Assembly: GCA_003166955.1 (NCBI GenBank)
Contig: PMUI01000049.1
Location: forward strand, 10,277-74,276
Direction of reading: 5' to 3'
DNA from: Acidobacterium sp.
GTDB lineage: Bacteria; Acidobacteriota; Terriglobia; Terriglobales; Acidobacteriaceae
DNA length: 64,000 bases
Shown here one piece after another: positions 52,369 through 59,170 of the stretch (the first letter of the stretch is position 1; each line of letters begins with the position of its first letter). The translations under genes were made by a program, and so were the position numbers. The notes under the pieces are model-generated. The model ran no database searches. It was not told where the DNA came from and was given only the letters and a program-made list of their open reading frames with translations.

Positions 52369-52736
52369 GACTCATCCCGAAAAGGCCGCCCGTCGCAGCC
52401 CTCCCAGGGCGTTCCCTTGTCCGGCGCCTAGCCACTGCTGCTTTTCCAGTGCGGTTTTCTGTGGAAATCCAAAACCTGCGGTAACCCCCGCTGCCTCTGT
52501 TGTTTCCCGATCTGACCCACCTGTGGAGGGGTAACGCAAAAGTACCACGGAGAAATTACCAAAGTAATTTTTGATGGTGACTTGCCGTGCTATGTTGGCA
52601 CCATATTGGTAACGGGGACTGACTTACAGGCAGCTCGGTGGCCGATCCGATTGAGTCAGGAGCTTTCCCCGCTGCCCTCTGCGTCTTCCGCTCGCCCGCC
52701 TGCGGAACCCGGCAGAGAGATTACGACGAGGATTCT
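52369..52736 (+). other. Upstream region of the NHL/Ig-like giant gene (368 nt)
   Basis: No gene was recognised. The AT-richer part 52530-52610 contains a perfect dyad (see 52553-52570) and several GGTAAC repeats (52479, 52530, 52608). The promoter of the downstream giant secreted protein is expected here. Confidence 0.45.
52553..52570. promoter_or_regulatory. Perfect inverted repeat, candidate operator
   Basis: AAATTAC-CAAA-GTAATTT is a perfect 7-bp dyad in an otherwise GC-rich region. Its right edge abuts TTTTTGATGG, and TATGTT at 52591-52596 could be a -10 element, so a bound regulator would overlap the -35 region of the giant secreted protein gene. Confidence 0.5.
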
Positions 52737-55700
52737 ATGACGGCTCTGTTTCGTTTCTGCCTTGCTTCCAGATGCAGCCTCAAGTCGCTATTTGCCGCTC
52801 TGATGACCACTGCGGCGCTGGCGCTGACCAGCGTGCCTGCCGTGCGTGCCCAGACGGTATTCCCGGCGACAGCGGTGGGGACGGCAACGCCTGCATCCCA
52901 GACCGTCACGGTCAGCCTGCAGGCGGCCGGCACCGTTGCCAAAGTCGAAGTGCTGACCCTGGGAGCGTCGAATCTGGACTTCACTGAATCCGGATCGGAC
53001 AACTGCAGCGGGATCAGTTCCGGCAGCTGCCAGGTGACCGTGGCCTTTGCGCCCAAATGCCCGGGGCTGCGCCAGGGCGCTGTCGTGCTGCTGGACGCAG
53101 CCAACAACACACTGGGCACCGCTTTCGTGGCTGGCATTGGGCAGGGTTCGCTGGCAGTCATGGTTCCGGGCGCGGTCAGCACCGTGGCCGGACAAGTCGG
53201 CGAGTGGACCGTGGTGAATGACGGCGGTCCGGCAACGCAGGCGGATCTGTACCTCCCCTCCGGCGTCTTCGTGGATGGCGCGGGCAATCTCTTCATCGCG
53301 GACTCGCACCACAACCGAGTGCGCGAAGTCTTCGCGGCCGGTGCAAATGCGGGCACGATTGCCACCGTGGCCGGCGATGGCGCAGCAGGTTATGACGGCA
53401 CCGCCACGGTGGCGACCTCGACGTCGTTGAATCAGCCGAGTGGCATAGCCATCGATGGTGCGGGCAACGTCTACATCGCGGATACGAACAACAACGTGAT
53501 CCGCAAAGTGGACCTGACCACCGGCGCGATCAGCACTGCGGCCGGCACCGGCGCGCCGGGATACACGGGCGATGGCGGCGCGGCAACCGCAGCGACGCTG
53601 AACTCGCCCGAGGGCATCGCGGTCGATGCGGCGGGCGATCTCTTCATCGCCGATACCAATAATGATGCGGTCCGGGAAGTGGTCGCAGCCACCGGAAAAA
53701 TCTCCACCATCGCAGGCGACGGAACGGGCGTACCGGGCTACGCGGGCGACGGCGCGCTGGCGATCTACGCCAGGCTCAATGCGCCTTACGGCGTAGCGCT
53801 CGATTCCACAGGGAATCTGTACATCGCCGATTCGGGCAATAACCGCGTGCGGGTGGTGAACGCAGCCGGCAACATCAGCACCTCGGCCGGCGATGGCGCC
53901 GCTGGCTACAAAGGCGATGGCGGCCTCGCGACCTCCGCTGAGTTGTATTCGCCGCTCGGCGTAGCGTGCGATCCAGCGGGCAATGTATACATCGCCGACG
54001 CGCGCAATTACGTCGTGCGCAAAGTGAATGCCGTCTCGAGAAATATCACGACCATCGCCGGCAGCAATGCGGACACCAACTACGTCGATGGCAAGTCGGA
54101 CTTCAGCTACGGCAACGGCGAGAACGGCGATGCGTTTAGCGGCGGCGGCATTGCGACCGGTGCGGGAATCTACGCGCCGTATGGTGTTGCGGTCGATCAA
54201 GCCGGAAATCTTGTGATCGCGGAGTATTTCGACCACATCGTTCGGGAGGTTGCGGCGAACTCGGCAACGTTATTCTTCACGCCGGAACTCTGGCAGAACC
54301 AGGTCAGCTCGCCGCAGAACCAGGTCATTGAAAACGACGGCAACGCGACGCTGACCTTTTCCGCAGTCACGCCGGATGCGAACGCCGCCGTTGCTTCGAC
54401 CGGCAGCACCTGCACTACGACCAGCAGCGTCACGGTCGATGAGTCCTGCGCGGTGGCCGCGGAGTTTGCGCCCACCAACACTGCCAATCCGCTGCCAAAC
54501 CCGCTCGTGGGCAACGTCAATCTGACCGCCAATTCTGCGGACTCGCCCCTCGATATTTCCATCGTCGGCGAGGCGCTTGGCCTGAACGGCGCGATCGTGA
54601 CGCTCAGTTCGAGCCAGAATCCTTCGGCCTATGGGCAGTCGGTCTCGCTGAACGTCACGGTGAAGCAGGATCCGAACTCGACGCAGGGCACGCCGACCGG
54701 GACGGTGACTTTCTCTGACACCTTCCAGGGAACGACGAGCCCGCTGGGGACCGCACAGACGCTGAACTCCAGCGGCAATGTGAGCCTGCAGCTTACTTCG
54801 CTGGCGGTGGGTACGCATGTCATCACCGCGAACTACAGCGGCGATACGTATTACAGCTCGTCAGCTTCCAACCCGCTTTCGCAGGTCGTACAAGAACAGG
54901 TAACCGTGACGGTTGCCAATACTGGCGGAGGCAATCCGTCGGCCTGGGGCACCACTGTGACCTTCACCGCAACCGTCAGCGTTTCAGGCGGAATTCCGGT
55001 TTCCGGCTCGGTCTCCTTCTACAACGGCGCGGCTTACCTGGGCAGCGGAACCCTGAACGGCAGCACGGCAACCTACTCGACGGCGAACCTGCCGGTGGGC
55101 AGCAACCCGATCACCGCAACCTTCACCGATTCCAACAACGTCAGCTCGACCTCCTCGCCGCTCAATCAGGTTGTGCAACAGACAACCGCGACGGCGATCA
55201 CCTCCAGCGCCAACCCCACCATCCACGGGACGCCGGTCACATTCACGGCCGTCGTCACGGCGGTGGGTACCGTTGTGCCGACCGGGACGGTAGCGTTCTA
55301 CGACGGCACTCTGCAGATCGGGACGGGCACGTTGGCTCCAGCTGGTACCACGAGCGCCGTAGCGACCTTCCAGACCTCGACTCTGGCTGCGGGAACGCAT
55401 TCGATTACTGCCTCCTATGGAGGCGACGCGAATGACTTCACCAGCACCTCCGCGGCGATTTCGCAGACCGTCAACATCGCCTCTTCGGCCACGGCTGTGG
55501 CAGCGAGCGCGAACCCGGCCATCGCCGGCAAGCCTCTCACGCTGACCGCGACCGTAACCACCAACGGCGGGACCGCCGCGGGCACCGTGAATTTCTACAA
55601 CGGAACGACGCTGCTGGGTACGGGCACGCTGAACGGAGCAGGGGCGGCGACCTTCACCTCCTCTACACTGCCGGCCGGTAACTATTCCGTCACGGCCAAC

Positions 55701-56867
55701 TATGTGGGCGACGCCAACGACACAGGCAGCACCTCGGCGACACTCGCGCTCACCGTCGTCCAGGCCACCACCACCATCAGCATCGTCACCAGCAACCAGA
55801 CCGTGCAGGTCACCAGCGCGGTCACGTTCACCGCGACCGTGACCGGCAACGGTGGAGTTCCAACTGGCAACGTCACATTTATGGATGGCGCCAACACGCT
55901 CGGCTCCGTAGCCGTCAACGCCGGCGGAGTGGCCAGCTACACCACTTCCTCGCTGGCGGTTGGGACGCACAACATCACGGCGGTGTACGGTGGCGACGCC
56001 AATGACGGCGGCAGCACATCGGCAGGCCTCACTGAAACCGTGACAGCCTACGCCACCCAGACATCGCTGGTGGCTTCCGCGACCAGCCTGAACACCGACC
56101 AGGAACTCACCCTGCTGACAACCACCACGTCGTCGACCGGCAACGCGGTGACCGGCACCGTCACCTGGATGAACGGTTCGACGACGCTGGGCTCGGCGAC
56201 GATAGGCGTCAACGGCACGGCGACCCTGAATCTGAATCCAGCCGCGGGATCGTACAGCATCACCGCGCACTACAGCGGTGACGCCCTCAACGCGCCGTCC
56301 GTCTCCAACGTGGTGACGGTCACCGTCTCGCTGGCCACGGAATTCACGATCGCCCTGAACCCGACTTCGCTCAGCATTCCGACCTCGCAGTCGGCGCAGT
56401 TGACCATCAACCTCGGATCGGAGGACGGGTTCGCCGACAAGATCGCGCTCGGCTGCGGCTCGCTGCCGTATTCGGTCAGCTGCAACTTCGCCACCAACGA
56501 TGTCACGCTGAACAAGGACGGCACAACCTCCGTCACCCTGACCGTCGATACGAACTCACCGCTGGCTTCCGGCTCGCAAGCGCGGAATGAGGATCCATTC
56601 AGCGGTAGCGGCATGCTCGCAGCGTGCGTCTTCCCAGGCGCGGCCCTCCTGGGGTTCGCATTCTGGCGCTTCCGCAAAAACGCAATGGCCCTGCGCGCGC
56701 TCGCGGTCATCGCGATGCTCGCAGGCACCACCCTCCTGATGACCGGCTGCGGCGGCTTCTCTCTGAACAGCGCCAAGGCGGGCAATTATGTGATCCAGGT
56801 GACGGCCACCGGCGAACAAACCGGCGTAACCCATGTCGCCAACCTCACATTAACGGTGACCCAGTGA
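52737..56867 (+). CDS. Giant secreted NHL-repeat/Ig-like repeat protein (1376 aa)
   Basis: The ATG at 52737 follows GAGG. A signal peptide ends near VRAQ. After an N-terminal Ig-like segment come about six NHL repeats (GVFVDGAGNLFIADSHHNRV, GIAIDGAGNVYIADTNNNVI, GVALDSTGNLYIADSGNNRV), giving a six-bladed propeller at about residues 140-510. At least seven Ig-like (Big_3_5-type) repeats follow, each with a VTFTATV...PTGTVTFYDG...YGGDAND pattern. Near the C-terminus two hydrophobic segments (AACVFPGAALLGFAFWRFRK and ALRALAVIAMLAGTTLLMTG) are followed by CGG and a final beta segment ending LTLTVTQ. The product is probably surface-exposed and anchored; its binding partner is unknown. Confidence 0.9.
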   Translation: MTALFRFCLASRCSLKSLFAALMTTAALALTSVPAVRAQTVFPATAVGTATPASQTVTVSLQAAGTVAKVEVLTLGASNLDFTESGSDNCSGISSGSCQVTVAFAPKCPGLRQGAVVLLDAANNTLGTAFVAGIGQGSLAVMVPGAVSTVAGQVGEWTVVNDGGPATQADLYLPSGVFVDGAGNLFIADSHHNRVREVFAAGANAGTIATVAGDGAAGYDGTATVATSTSLNQPSGIAIDGAGNVYIADTNNNVIRKVDLTTGAISTAAGTGAPGYTGDGGAATAATLNSPEGIAVDAAGDLFIADTNNDAVREVVAATGKISTIAGDGTGVPGYAGDGALAIYARLNAPYGVALDSTGNLYIADSGNNRVRVVNAAGNISTSAGDGAAGYKGDGGLATSAELYSPLGVACDPAGNVYIADARNYVVRKVNAVSRNITTIAGSNADTNYVDGKSDFSYGNGENGDAFSGGGIATGAGIYAPYGVAVDQAGNLVIAEYFDHIVREVAANSATLFFTPELWQNQVSSPQNQVIENDGNATLTFSAVTPDANAAVASTGSTCTTTSSVTVDESCAVAAEFAPTNTANPLPNPLVGNVNLTANSADSPLDISIVGEALGLNGAIVTLSSSQNPSAYGQSVSLNVTVKQDPNSTQGTPTGTVTFSDTFQGTTSPLGTAQTLNSSGNVSLQLTSLAVGTHVITANYSGDTYYSSSASNPLSQVVQEQVTVTVANTGGGNPSAWGTTVTFTATVSVSGGIPVSGSVSFYNGAAYLGSGTLNGSTATYSTANLPVGSNPITATFTDSNNVSSTSSPLNQVVQQTTATAITSSANPTIHGTPVTFTAVVTAVGTVVPTGTVAFYDGTLQIGTGTLAPAGTTSAVATFQTSTLAAGTHSITASYGGDANDFTSTSAAISQTVNIASSATAVAASANPAIAGKPLTLTATVTTNGGTAAGTVNFYNGTTLLGTGTLNGAGAATFTSSTLPAGNYSVTANYVGDANDTGSTSATLALTVVQATTTISIVTSNQTVQVTSAVTFTATVTGNGGVPTGNVTFMDGANTLGSVAVNAGGVASYTTSSLAVGTHNITAVYGGDANDGGSTSAGLTETVTAYATQTSLVASATSLNTDQELTLLTTTTSSTGNAVTGTVTWMNGSTTLGSATIGVNGTATLNLNPAAGSYSITAHYSGDALNAPSVSNVVTVTVSLATEFTIALNPTSLSIPTSQSAQLTINLGSEDGFADKIALGCGSLPYSVSCNFATNDVTLNKDGTTSVTLTVDTNSPLASGSQARNEDPFSGSGMLAACVFPGAALLGFAFWRFRKNAMALRALAVIAMLAGTTLLMTGCGGFSLNSAKAGNYVIQVTATGEQTGVTHVANLTLTVTQ

Positions 56868-56881
56868 GTGGAGTTGCCATC

Positions 56882-57439
56882 ATGATGAATTGCAAATGGG
56901 TAACTCGGGCTCTGTTGCTGGCCGGCCTGCTGGCTGGCTTCACAGGCGCGCGCGCGCAGTCGCCCGAGGCCGCCGTCGGCGACTGGTCGTCGCTGGCTGT
57001 CGGCGGCAGCGTTAACGCGACGCGGCTGCAATATGGGCAGCACTGGATGATCGGCGGAACGGCCTTTGTCGACGCCAATTTCACATGGCGTTACGGCATC
57101 GAAGGCGAGACCAACTGGGAGGTCCTTCGGCAGGTCGAGAACACTCGTGCGACCACCTACCTTGTAGGTCCCCGCTTTCAGATGGCTGGCCTGGGGCAAA
57201 ACGCCCAGTGGCGGCCCTACGTCAAGTTCCTGGCCGGCGACGGCTATTTCAACTTCCCCTATCACTACGCATGGGGCAACTACTTTGTCATGGCCCCCGG
57301 GGCGGGCATCGACTACCGGGTGAACTCGCGGGTCCGGTTGCGCCTCCTCGATGCCGAGTATCAGTACTGGCCGACGTTTACCTATGGGTCGATGACGAAC
57401 CTCAGTGTGAGCGCGGGCGTGCGGTATCGAATTCGGTAA
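56882..57439 (+). CDS. Outer-membrane beta-barrel protein (185 aa)
   Basis: The start is the ATG at 56882 with GGAG 8 nt upstream, 14 nt after the giant gene's stop codon. A signal peptide ends GARAQ. The mature protein has alternating strands typical of an eight-stranded OmpA/OmpW-like barrel (WSSLAVGGSVNATRLQYGQH, FVDANFTWRYGIEGETNWEV, VMAPGAGIDYRVNSRVRLRL) and ends LSVSAGVRYRIR, an aromatic/charged C-terminal strand. Tight linkage to the giant secreted protein suggests a shared transcript and possibly a role in its anchoring; that is inference. Confidence 0.83.
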   Translation: MMNCKWVTRALLLAGLLAGFTGARAQSPEAAVGDWSSLAVGGSVNATRLQYGQHWMIGGTAFVDANFTWRYGIEGETNWEVLRQVENTRATTYLVGPRFQMAGLGQNAQWRPYVKFLAGDGYFNFPYHYAWGNYFVMAPGAGIDYRVNSRVRLRLLDAEYQYWPTFTYGSMTNLSVSAGVRYRIR

Positions 57440-57473
57440 ACGCTGGAATTGCATTACTCGAGTGAGAGGTTTT

Positions 57474-58142
57474 ATGCCAGGGTTCTTCAGACGTCTGCAG
57501 TCTCTTGTTGTACTCGGTGGGGTAGGTTGCACCCTGGCGGCGGCCGCATCGGCGCGCGCGCAGGATGCGACGCAAACCGTACATCTGAATCGTAGTGAAG
57601 CGGTCCTGTCGACCACCGTCGGCTCGTTTGTTCACAGACCGAGCCACGTAGAGACTTTCGCCGCCTTCGTCCGGGAGATCGGCGCCGACGATCTCTATGC
57701 CCGCAAAGAAGCCATCACCGGCGAAAAGCAGCCGCGCGTGGACTGGAAGGCGCTGAATCACGCGTTAATCGGTCTGACTGACGAGGAGTGGAGCACCGCC
57801 TACACGAACCTCCTCGACGGCAGCCAGCGTGTCGCCGACTGGGGCGACCAGATGCAGGAAGCGCTGGGATGGAAGGATGGCCGGTTCCAGGCGGATCGCT
57901 CCGGGCCCGCCGCGGAACAGATGGCGCGGTTCGACCGGCTGAGCGATCAGGGCGATTCCATCGTTGACGAGACCATGGCCCGCCTGCGGCAGCATCTGGG
58001 AGACGACGCGTTCAATAAGCTCGATACCTTCGTCTACCAGCGCGAGGGCGGCGAACGGATCGTCGATCAGGGGCCGACCAAGCGCGGTCCGATTGAGACA
58101 GCGAAAGCCACTCCGCAGGCTGTCGTTCCGGCACACAAGTAG
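57474..58142 (+). CDS. Exported helical protein of unknown function (222 aa)
   Basis: The ATG at 57474 has GAGAGG 6 nt upstream; a GTG 12 nt earlier is less likely. A signal peptide (LVVLGGVGCTLAAAASARAQ) is followed by a mainly helical domain: SFVHRPSHVETFAAFVREIG, EWSTAYTNLLDGSQRVADWG and ETMARLRQHLGDDAFNKLDT. No catalytic motif is apparent. It is the third gene of a run with the giant NHL/Ig protein and the barrel protein (34-nt gap), so a common envelope role is possible. Confidence 0.8.
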   Translation: MPGFFRRLQSLVVLGGVGCTLAAAASARAQDATQTVHLNRSEAVLSTTVGSFVHRPSHVETFAAFVREIGADDLYARKEAITGEKQPRVDWKALNHALIGLTDEEWSTAYTNLLDGSQRVADWGDQMQEALGWKDGRFQADRSGPAAEQMARFDRLSDQGDSIVDETMARLRQHLGDDAFNKLDTFVYQREGGERIVDQGPTKRGPIETAKATPQAVVPAHK

Positions 58143-58147
58143 CCCCT

Positions 58148-59170
58148 TCACTCCTCGCGGTGGGTCTCCTCGGGCGGCGGGGGCGGCGGGGGCGCCGGTG
58201 TTGCGGGCTCAGCCGGCAAAATCTGAACCAACGCCGGTTGTTCTGGCTCCCCTGAGCCCATCGCAGCCTCGTGTTGCATGCGTGCCGCTGCAGCGATGTC
58301 CACCGGAATACCGCCCGGGACGATCTCCGCGTAGCCGTACTTGTGCTTCAAATCCCCAGTGACGCGGACCATCGCAAACAGCAGCAGAAACGAAACCAGC
58401 ACCGCGAAGGCCGACCCCTCCGGACCCTGCCCGCCGCCGCTGAGCCACGCCGGTCCATTCGCGTTCGTCGCAATCACGGGCGAGTAGCTCATCGGGCCGG
58501 AGACGGGCAGGCCGAAGAGCATGCTCATCGTGGCGATCCACGCAAAGTGAAATCCCCACCCGACCCACAGAGCGCGCGTGCGCAGAACGGCCACCGCCAG
58601 CACCATGCCCAGGAAAAATGAAACCAGCACCGACGCCGTGGTCGTCGCCCCGGAGTGCGTGCGCCATATGGCATAAACGACAGCCATGAAAAACGCCGCC
58701 AGACCGGGGCCCATGGCTTCCACGAGCCGCAGGAACGGATAGCCCCGGAACGCGATCTCGATCGCGAGCGTGCCCGCGGCAAGCGCGATCAGATCGAGAA
58801 ACAAAATGACGTACTGATGCGCGTTGGTGAATGTCGTGAGGACCAGGCCGCCGATGAGCGCGACCGGCAGCACACAGGCAAGGACGCCGGCCCATCCGAG
58901 CGCCGTTCCAAGTGCGAATTCCTTTGCCCATCCAGGACGAGGGACAAGCGCTGTCGCATTGCCAGCGTCCATGCGGCGCTGGCCGAGGCGACTCATGATC
59001 CAGTAGCCGACGATCAGCAGAAAGAGCAGCAGAATGCGGTAGAGCGGCTCCTGAAAGTCGCCGGCATTGACTGCGGCGGCGGCGCCCGAGGCGACAAGGT
59101 CCGAGAACAGAAACCACGCGCTGGCCACCAGAAACCACATCAGCGCGGAAAGACGCCCGAGAAAACTCAC
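58148..59170 (-). CDS. CPBP-family intramembrane protease homologue, degenerate active site
   Basis: A 340-residue membrane protein with about eight transmembrane helices. The CPBP (Rce1/Abi) core is recognisable: LAIEIAFRGYPFLRLVEAM (motif 1), FFMAVVYAIWRTHSG (motif 2) and GWGFHFAWIATMSMLFGLP (motif 3). In motif 1 the usual EExxxR reads IExxxR, so the first Glu is absent. The FxxxH of motif 2 and the Asn of motif 3 HxxxN are not conserved. The C-terminal ~80 residues are cytoplasmic and end in a Pro-rich tail. Either it is a non-catalytic member or it uses a different residue set. Confidence 0.8.
   Translation of the reverse strand: MSFLGRLSALMWFLVASAWFLFSDLVASGAAAAVNAGDFQEPLYRILLLFLLIVGYWIMSRLGQRRMDAGNATALVPRPGWAKEFALGTALGWAGVLACVLPVALIGGLVLTTFTNAHQYVILFLDLIALAAGTLAIEIAFRGYPFLRLVEAMGPGLAAFFMAVVYAIWRTHSGATTTASVLVSFFLGMVLAVAVLRTRALWVGWGFHFAWIATMSMLFGLPVSGPMSYSPVIATNANGPAWLSGGGQGPEGSAFAVLVSFLLLFAMVRVTGDLKHKYGYAEIVPGGIPVDIAAAARMQHEAAMGSGEPEQPALVQILPAEPATPAPPPPPPPEETHREE

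Follow-up and report, generated by a model that had tools for sequence, protein, structure and literature searches.

Lipoprotein signal peptides combine basic residues, a hydrophobic core and a lipobox with its cysteine, and are processed by Lgt and LspA. In chaperone-usher pili, an Ig-like fold is completed by a strand of another protein, an arrangement termed donor-strand complementation. NCBIfam release 20.0 holds a model, NF058595.1 ('invert_tail'), named 'lipo-invert putative C-terminal anchoring domain'; its name and description line, through which we compared it, mention neither the interruption of an Ig-like domain nor the fate of a cysteine. MYXO-CTERM is described as a C-terminal tail with an invariant cysteine, a membrane helix and an Arg cluster; in the proposed scheme an Lgt-like enzyme lipidates the tail and an intramembrane cut comes next, and relative to LspA substrates the authors assign these tails an 'inverted topology' and no lipobox (PMC11980579). 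Here we analyze the C-terminal tail of a large NHL/Ig-like protein encoded in a 64-kb stretch of acidobacterial DNA, which we refer to as the window. The tail family already has a database model; what this analysis adds is the anatomy of the interrupted domain and the reading of the tail as containing an internal signal peptide.

The ORF that carries the tail (52638–56867, forward strand; 1409 aa) encodes NHL repeats and six Big_3_5 Ig-like domains. Its listed start is GTG 52638, and we took ATG 52737 (M34), which sits immediately before the signal-peptide-like N-terminus, as the probable start of the host gene (Table 1). The tail runs from SVTLTVDTNSPLASGS into two hydrophobic stretches flanking RFRKN, then through LLMTGCGG and NYVIQVTATG...VANLTLTVTQ to the stop codon, as the first-pass annotation had correctly read and located it. 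Residues are numbered according to P0001, the 179-aa segment encoded by window positions 56328–56864; the protein ends one residue past its last β-strand (residue 178). No further tail was found in the 64-kb window.

Table 1. Features of the tail gene and its downstream neighbors (window coordinates)
Feature	Position	Strand	Basis or remarks
Host gene, NHL β-propeller / Ig-like (Big_3_5 x6) protein	52737..56867	+	probable start codon
Last Ig-like domain, first part (P0001 residues 5–74)	56340..56549	+	profile and AlphaFold2
Low-confidence linker from domain to helix 1 (P0001 residues 75–94)	56550..56609	+	AlphaFold2
Predicted transmembrane helix 1, ending WRFRKN (P0001 residues 95–117)	56610..56678	+	AlphaFold2 and hydropathy
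Predicted transmembrane helix 2 (P0001 residues 119–138), proposed to be the h-region of an internal type II signal peptide	56682..56741	+	
Lipobox-like MTGC; Cys codon 56748–56750 (residue 141)	56739..56750	+	sequence and alignments
Linker GGFSLNSAKA from Cys to last strands (P0001 residues 142–151)	56751..56780	+	sequence and AlphaFold2
Last two β-strands of the interrupted domain (P0001 residues 152–178)	56781..56861	+	profile, AlphaFold2, structural alignment
Outer-membrane β-barrel gene (PF13505)	56882..57439	+	14 nt after the stop of the tail gene; 28.9 bits vs 28.7
226-aa protein, no Pfam match	57462–58142	+	adjoins the barrel in close relatives only
CPBP-type (PF02517) membrane protease gene	58148–59170	-	beside accA

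Tails were detected by hydropathy with the value of Cys set to zero. This yielded 145 hairpins in 215 loci, of which 13 without a cysteine were judged to be unrelated proteins or antisense frames and left out; two Cys-bearing hairpins, in frames of 256 aa (L158) and 428 aa (L209), were also left out, so that 130 tails were kept. A non-redundant set comprised 103 tails with <60% identity around the cysteine, alignment A2 comprised 106 of the 111 listed tails (L095, L096, L098, L212 and L214 were omitted), and alignment A3 comprised 71 sequences. The tails were compared with a domain profile of 102 positions, built from 10 relatives that lack the interruption, of which nine belong to genomes outside the order of the window's organism. 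In all 130 tails (130/130), the part before the hairpin stops at profile position 68–89. The part after the cysteine begins at profile position 65–80 and extends to at least 98 in 121/130 real tails versus 13/1300 shuffled ones, and it scores at least 8 bits against the profile in 125/130 real tails versus 7/1300 shuffled ones.

Using the 106-tail alignment, AlphaFold2 predicted the window tail with a mean pLDDT of 85.4 and a pTM of 0.67. The strands of the model fall within residues 5–74 and 152–178 of 179, with ten-residue blocks mostly at 93–98, while helices were predicted at 95–117 and 119–138 and residues 82–89 were poorly predicted. Contiguous Ig-like domains of solved chains align over residues 4–178 of the predicted tail; one such alignment of the model was to residues 404–502 of the sialidase 2ber (98 residues, 1.9 Å, Z = 12.4). 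A second tail from the same genome (contig C54), only 20% identical to the window tail, gave the same predicted layout (pLDDT 84.0) and aligned to 2ber with Z = 12.1, and the C54 protein carries an uninterrupted copy of the domain immediately upstream of its interrupted copy. The profile break, the model of the window tail and the second tail uphold the first-pass view that the final Ig-like domain is interrupted, and the observation of this domain with its tail is confirmed. These computations make it nearly certain that the tail is a split Ig-like domain with a helical hairpin inserted into it.

The profile gave 163 first-half-only matches; every one of these that falls in a locus of the order lies 83–131 residues from the C-terminus, so the interruption was seen in the last domain only. 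By a strict count, one of 57 proteins has a full-length uninterrupted copy upstream in the same chain. A looser search returned 28 matches to uninterrupted copies in loci of the order, which is not a clean count, as duplicates of the same locus are included and two of the matches (L090 and L138) continue into a hairpin.

The tail is widespread. A profile of 22 tails (A1) found it in 246/249 genomes of the order at E ≤ 1e-6, with at most 14 candidates scored per genome, and many of these genomes carry about ten copies. The window's genome has 11 profile matches that span the hairpin; the hydropathy detector, run on 939 ORFs from 1.09 Mb of sequence that deliberately included tail regions, gave 77 C-terminal hairpins there, 11 of them such tails, including the window's. 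The suggestion that the tail recurs in Acidobacteria thus holds across genomes, and proteins other than this one carry it. Six relatives of the window tail have names, each being that of an Acidobacterium sp., Acidobacteriaceae or Acidobacteria metagenome assembly, and proteins ending in the tail range from 224 to 4207 aa. Two open frames of 4679 and 5080 aa (L021 and L023) have an extra SLCPGCN(T/S)H past the last strand, which adds two cysteines. In a draw of 396 genomes from the phylum, 99 had a profile match. Twenty-five of these matching genomes, all outside the order, were searched again: G511 and G462 (family f51) contain isolated whole tails and G473 (f55) a tail up to position 127, which were possibly acquired by transfer. 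In the other 22, most of what matches is the Ig domain's first part, and these matches represent the uninterrupted domain; one match, in G327, runs from 22 to 134 and crosses a stop.

NF058595 matches the window tail with 49.1 bits (50.4 in the genome search), above its curated cut-off of 37, and matches 22/22 of the A1 tails, so that the tail, contrary to the first-pass suggestion, is not undescribed. Its match on the window tail covers residues 64–173 of 175, which takes in the end of the first part of the domain, the hairpin, the cysteine and the last strands. Over the cut-off, the model hits 244/249 genomes of the order, 30/247 of the phylum draw and 0/14 control genomes. A scan of the whole window protein against NCBIfam did not list NF058595, an omission presumably caused by filtering of so long and repetitive a sequence. 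The open-licence literature searched contained no description of the NF058595 tail.

We found the tail cysteine in 106/106 aligned tails. As the profiles used to find the loci contain this cysteine, its invariance is partly a sampling effect, with Cys-less variants under-sampled; the total absence of large residues at the preceding position is less open to this objection. Position -1 is G in 76, A in 23 and S in 7 of the 106 tails, as in a lipobox (MTGC in the window tail), position -3 is mostly L, A, V, M or I, and position +1 is G in 71, S in 19, A in 8, N in 6, D in 1 and T in 1. In the 103 non-redundant tails, G, A or S occupies -1 in 103 versus about 37 predicted from helix composition, a comparison biased by a Cys-choosing rule that favors these residues. 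Taking the first cysteine after helix 2, free of that rule, position -1 is G, A or S in 120/132 sequences, and the exceptions include in-helix cysteines upstream of the lipobox cysteine; a strict lipobox rule is satisfied by only 108/132. The hairpin background contains 58 cysteines in 4382 residues. Heuristic candidates for N-terminal lipoproteins had A, G or S at -1 in 25/46 cases in the 1.09 Mb from the window's genome, about ten of which look real, and in 11/16 cases in the loci; these candidates are too few and too mixed for a logo of ordinary N-terminal lipoproteins.

The first-pass annotation had offered the cysteine as either a lipid or a disulphide site. The residues at -1 favor the former. 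A disulphide as its main role was rejected, with another cysteine in the C-terminal part of just 3/103 tails and two other cysteines in the domain itself; these are near-invariant (104/106 and 103/106 tails) and could pair with each other. The earlier interpretation of the tail is therefore partly supported: the interruption, the recurrence and the appearance of an anchoring signal stand, the suggestion that the tail is undescribed falls, and the disulphide option is disfavored.

The layout of residues around the cysteine resembles that of a lipoprotein signal, though not in its location. The loop between the helices has 3–7 R/K residues in the 103 non-redundant tails, with a mean of 4.6 basic residues, compared with 1.3 upstream of helix 1 and 0.3 downstream of the cysteine, a concentration fitting a cytoplasmic loop. 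The last charged residue mostly lies 15–24 residues before the cysteine and the 12 residues upstream of it are uncharged in 102/103 tails, giving the basic n-region and hydrophobic core expected of such a signal. In the 103 non-redundant tails, the cysteine lies 35–77 residues from the C-terminus, at the opposite end from the N-terminal location of lipoprotein signals. Proline is present in the core of helix 1 in 68/103 tails versus 7/103 for helix 2. The helix-1 proline often lies about 11 residues upstream of the first Arg.

We put the probability at roughly 55% that the tail serves for C-terminal lipid anchoring from within an Ig-like domain, with Lgt lipidating the cysteine and LspA cutting before it. 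The N-terminal signal peptide would direct export of the protein; helix 1 would act as a stop-transfer sequence, leaving the Arg/Lys loop in the cytoplasm, and helix 2 would pass back into the membrane, serving there as an internal signal peptide of type II, with its basic n-region, hydrophobic core, lipobox and cysteine. Once exposed on the outside, the last two strands would make the Ig-like domain whole. Lgt would attach diacylglyceryl to the cysteine and LspA would cleave immediately upstream of it, leaving a two-chain product in which the last two strands form a small lipoprotein and the large body is held through strand pairing. Lipidation and cleavage at the cysteine are favored by the loop-to-Cys layout of a lipoprotein signal peptide and by the presence of Lgt and LspA in the genome; we also infer the strand-held state and an outer-membrane destination.

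A signal-like stretch was found at the N-terminus of 52/57 proteins read at full length (heuristic), and LspA in 30/31 genomes searched. The window's genome has one LspA match and two Lgt matches, so the needed enzymes are present; the two Lgt genes of this genome (G000) are on contigs C90 and C56 (L266 and L267). By hand count, at least two Lgt genes occur in 19/22 genomes of the order versus 54/175 others of the phylum, which is suggestive of extra Lgt copies as a signature, but confounded by kinship. The NCBIfam name 'lipo-invert' points the same way as the lipid-anchor reading. Lipidation alone would not release the protein from the inner membrane, since helix 1 would still hold the body after the LspA cut. 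Transfer to the outer membrane would also need helix 1 to be cut or left behind, and no candidate enzyme for a second cut was identified.

The gene after the tail gene encodes an outer-membrane β-barrel. A related barrel directly follows the tail gene in 52/130 tail loci and in 36/72 of those with at least 700 nt of downstream sequence. Across genera, it turned up in every one of the 20 regions fetched downstream of the window gene's relatives, although one region is just 198 bases long and the 20 are not independent, being from relatives of one another. No barrel was seen beside the ten other tails of the window's genome, some of which have short downstream sequence. The barrel neighbor accompanies one group of tail proteins only, and its conservation suggests that the window protein works at the outer membrane. 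The CPBP-type gene was considered as a tail-processing protease and rejected, as the neighborhood is common to close relatives only: of the 20 downstream regions, five (L275, L277–L280) have it beside accA, and it was not found in the rest, among which L276, with 198 bases, is too short to judge. With that distribution, it is not linked to the tail.

Other explanations of the tail have to be weighed against this evidence. The hairpin might be an uncleaved inner-membrane anchor that tethers the domain while the last strands fold back, with the cysteine kept for some other reason, such as a structural role or lipidation that no cut follows; in that case the long stack of Ig domains might extend from the inner membrane to the outer-membrane barrel. 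A hairpin would suffice as an anchor, the predicted models do show two helices, and a stack of Ig domains beside a barrel gene fits a tether. We nevertheless regard this as unlikely, while keeping it in serious contention: it leaves unexplained why the invariant cysteine is preceded by G, A or S in every aligned tail and why helix 2 resembles a signal peptide, and the range of lengths of the tail proteins (224 to 4207 aa) disfavors a spacer of fixed length. More doubtful still is a sorting tail in which a dedicated protease cleaves helix 1 within the membrane and the Cys-containing part is a separate by-product. With an Arg cluster after it, helix 1 looks like the tails of exosortase, rhombosortase or myxosortase substrates, and the enrichment of proline in the helix-1 core agrees with this; we consider it improbable because no known CTERM model is among the families matching more than one tail, no dedicated protease was found adjoining the gene, and the conserved strands and cysteine would have no explanation. 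The PVV-CTERM and T9SS tail models each gave one weak match to a single tail (E = 0.057 and 0.043). The 19 NCBIfam families that the 22 tails hit at E ≤ 1 include no PEP-CTERM model; HMMER filters may drop weak matches.

A reading in which the domain is complete, an ordinary anchor comes after it and some 30 unrelated residues end the protein has the usual C-terminal position of anchors in its favor and nothing else. It is contradicted by the last residues, which match about profile positions 73–102 and are predicted to be the last strands of the domain, so that in the predicted fold the domain is not complete before an ordinary anchor begins; we hold this reading to be very improbable. A frameshift, gene fusion or assembly error is next to impossible, as the same arrangement recurs in 246/249 genomes of the order and in 130 separately read tails.

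As a proposed lipid-anchoring module, the window tail shares with the type II signal peptides handled by Lgt and LspA its basic residues, hydrophobic core, small residue at -1 and Gly or Ser at +1. Those signals are N-terminal, whereas this one follows another membrane helix close to the C-terminal end of a long exported protein. The end state expected after cleavage is that of donor-strand complementation, an Ig-like fold completed by another chain; in pili the strand comes from another protein, whereas here fold prediction suggests that it would come from the same precursor. The myxosortase system and the present tail have in common an invariant cysteine, a membrane helix and an Arg cluster in a C-terminal tail (PMC11980579). 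The order of elements differs: MYXO-CTERM runs cysteine, helix, terminal Arg cluster (PMC11980579), whereas the tail here runs helix, Arg cluster, helix, cysteine, two strands, which is an LspA-type order unlike that of MYXO-CTERM.

Taken together, our data suggest that bacteria of this order lipid-anchor big proteins at the C-terminal end by splitting a folded domain. A broader account can be put forward tentatively, as possible rather than probable: the order may lipid-anchor many of its large exported proteins C-terminally, using a signal peptide in the last Ig-like domain, an LspA cut and a strand-paired body that is carried to the outer membrane, where some bodies would work with the adjacent barrel. 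If lipid anchoring by this tail is true, the lipoprotein pathway would operate in the interior of a polypeptide, at the end remote from the N-terminus, and one gene would give rise to a two-chain domain. It would also be a main attachment route for the large surface-type proteins of the order, of which many members have about ten per genome. Placing the tail within an Ig-like domain gives the database name a testable mechanism, with a predicted cut position, a lipid site and a product held together by its strands.
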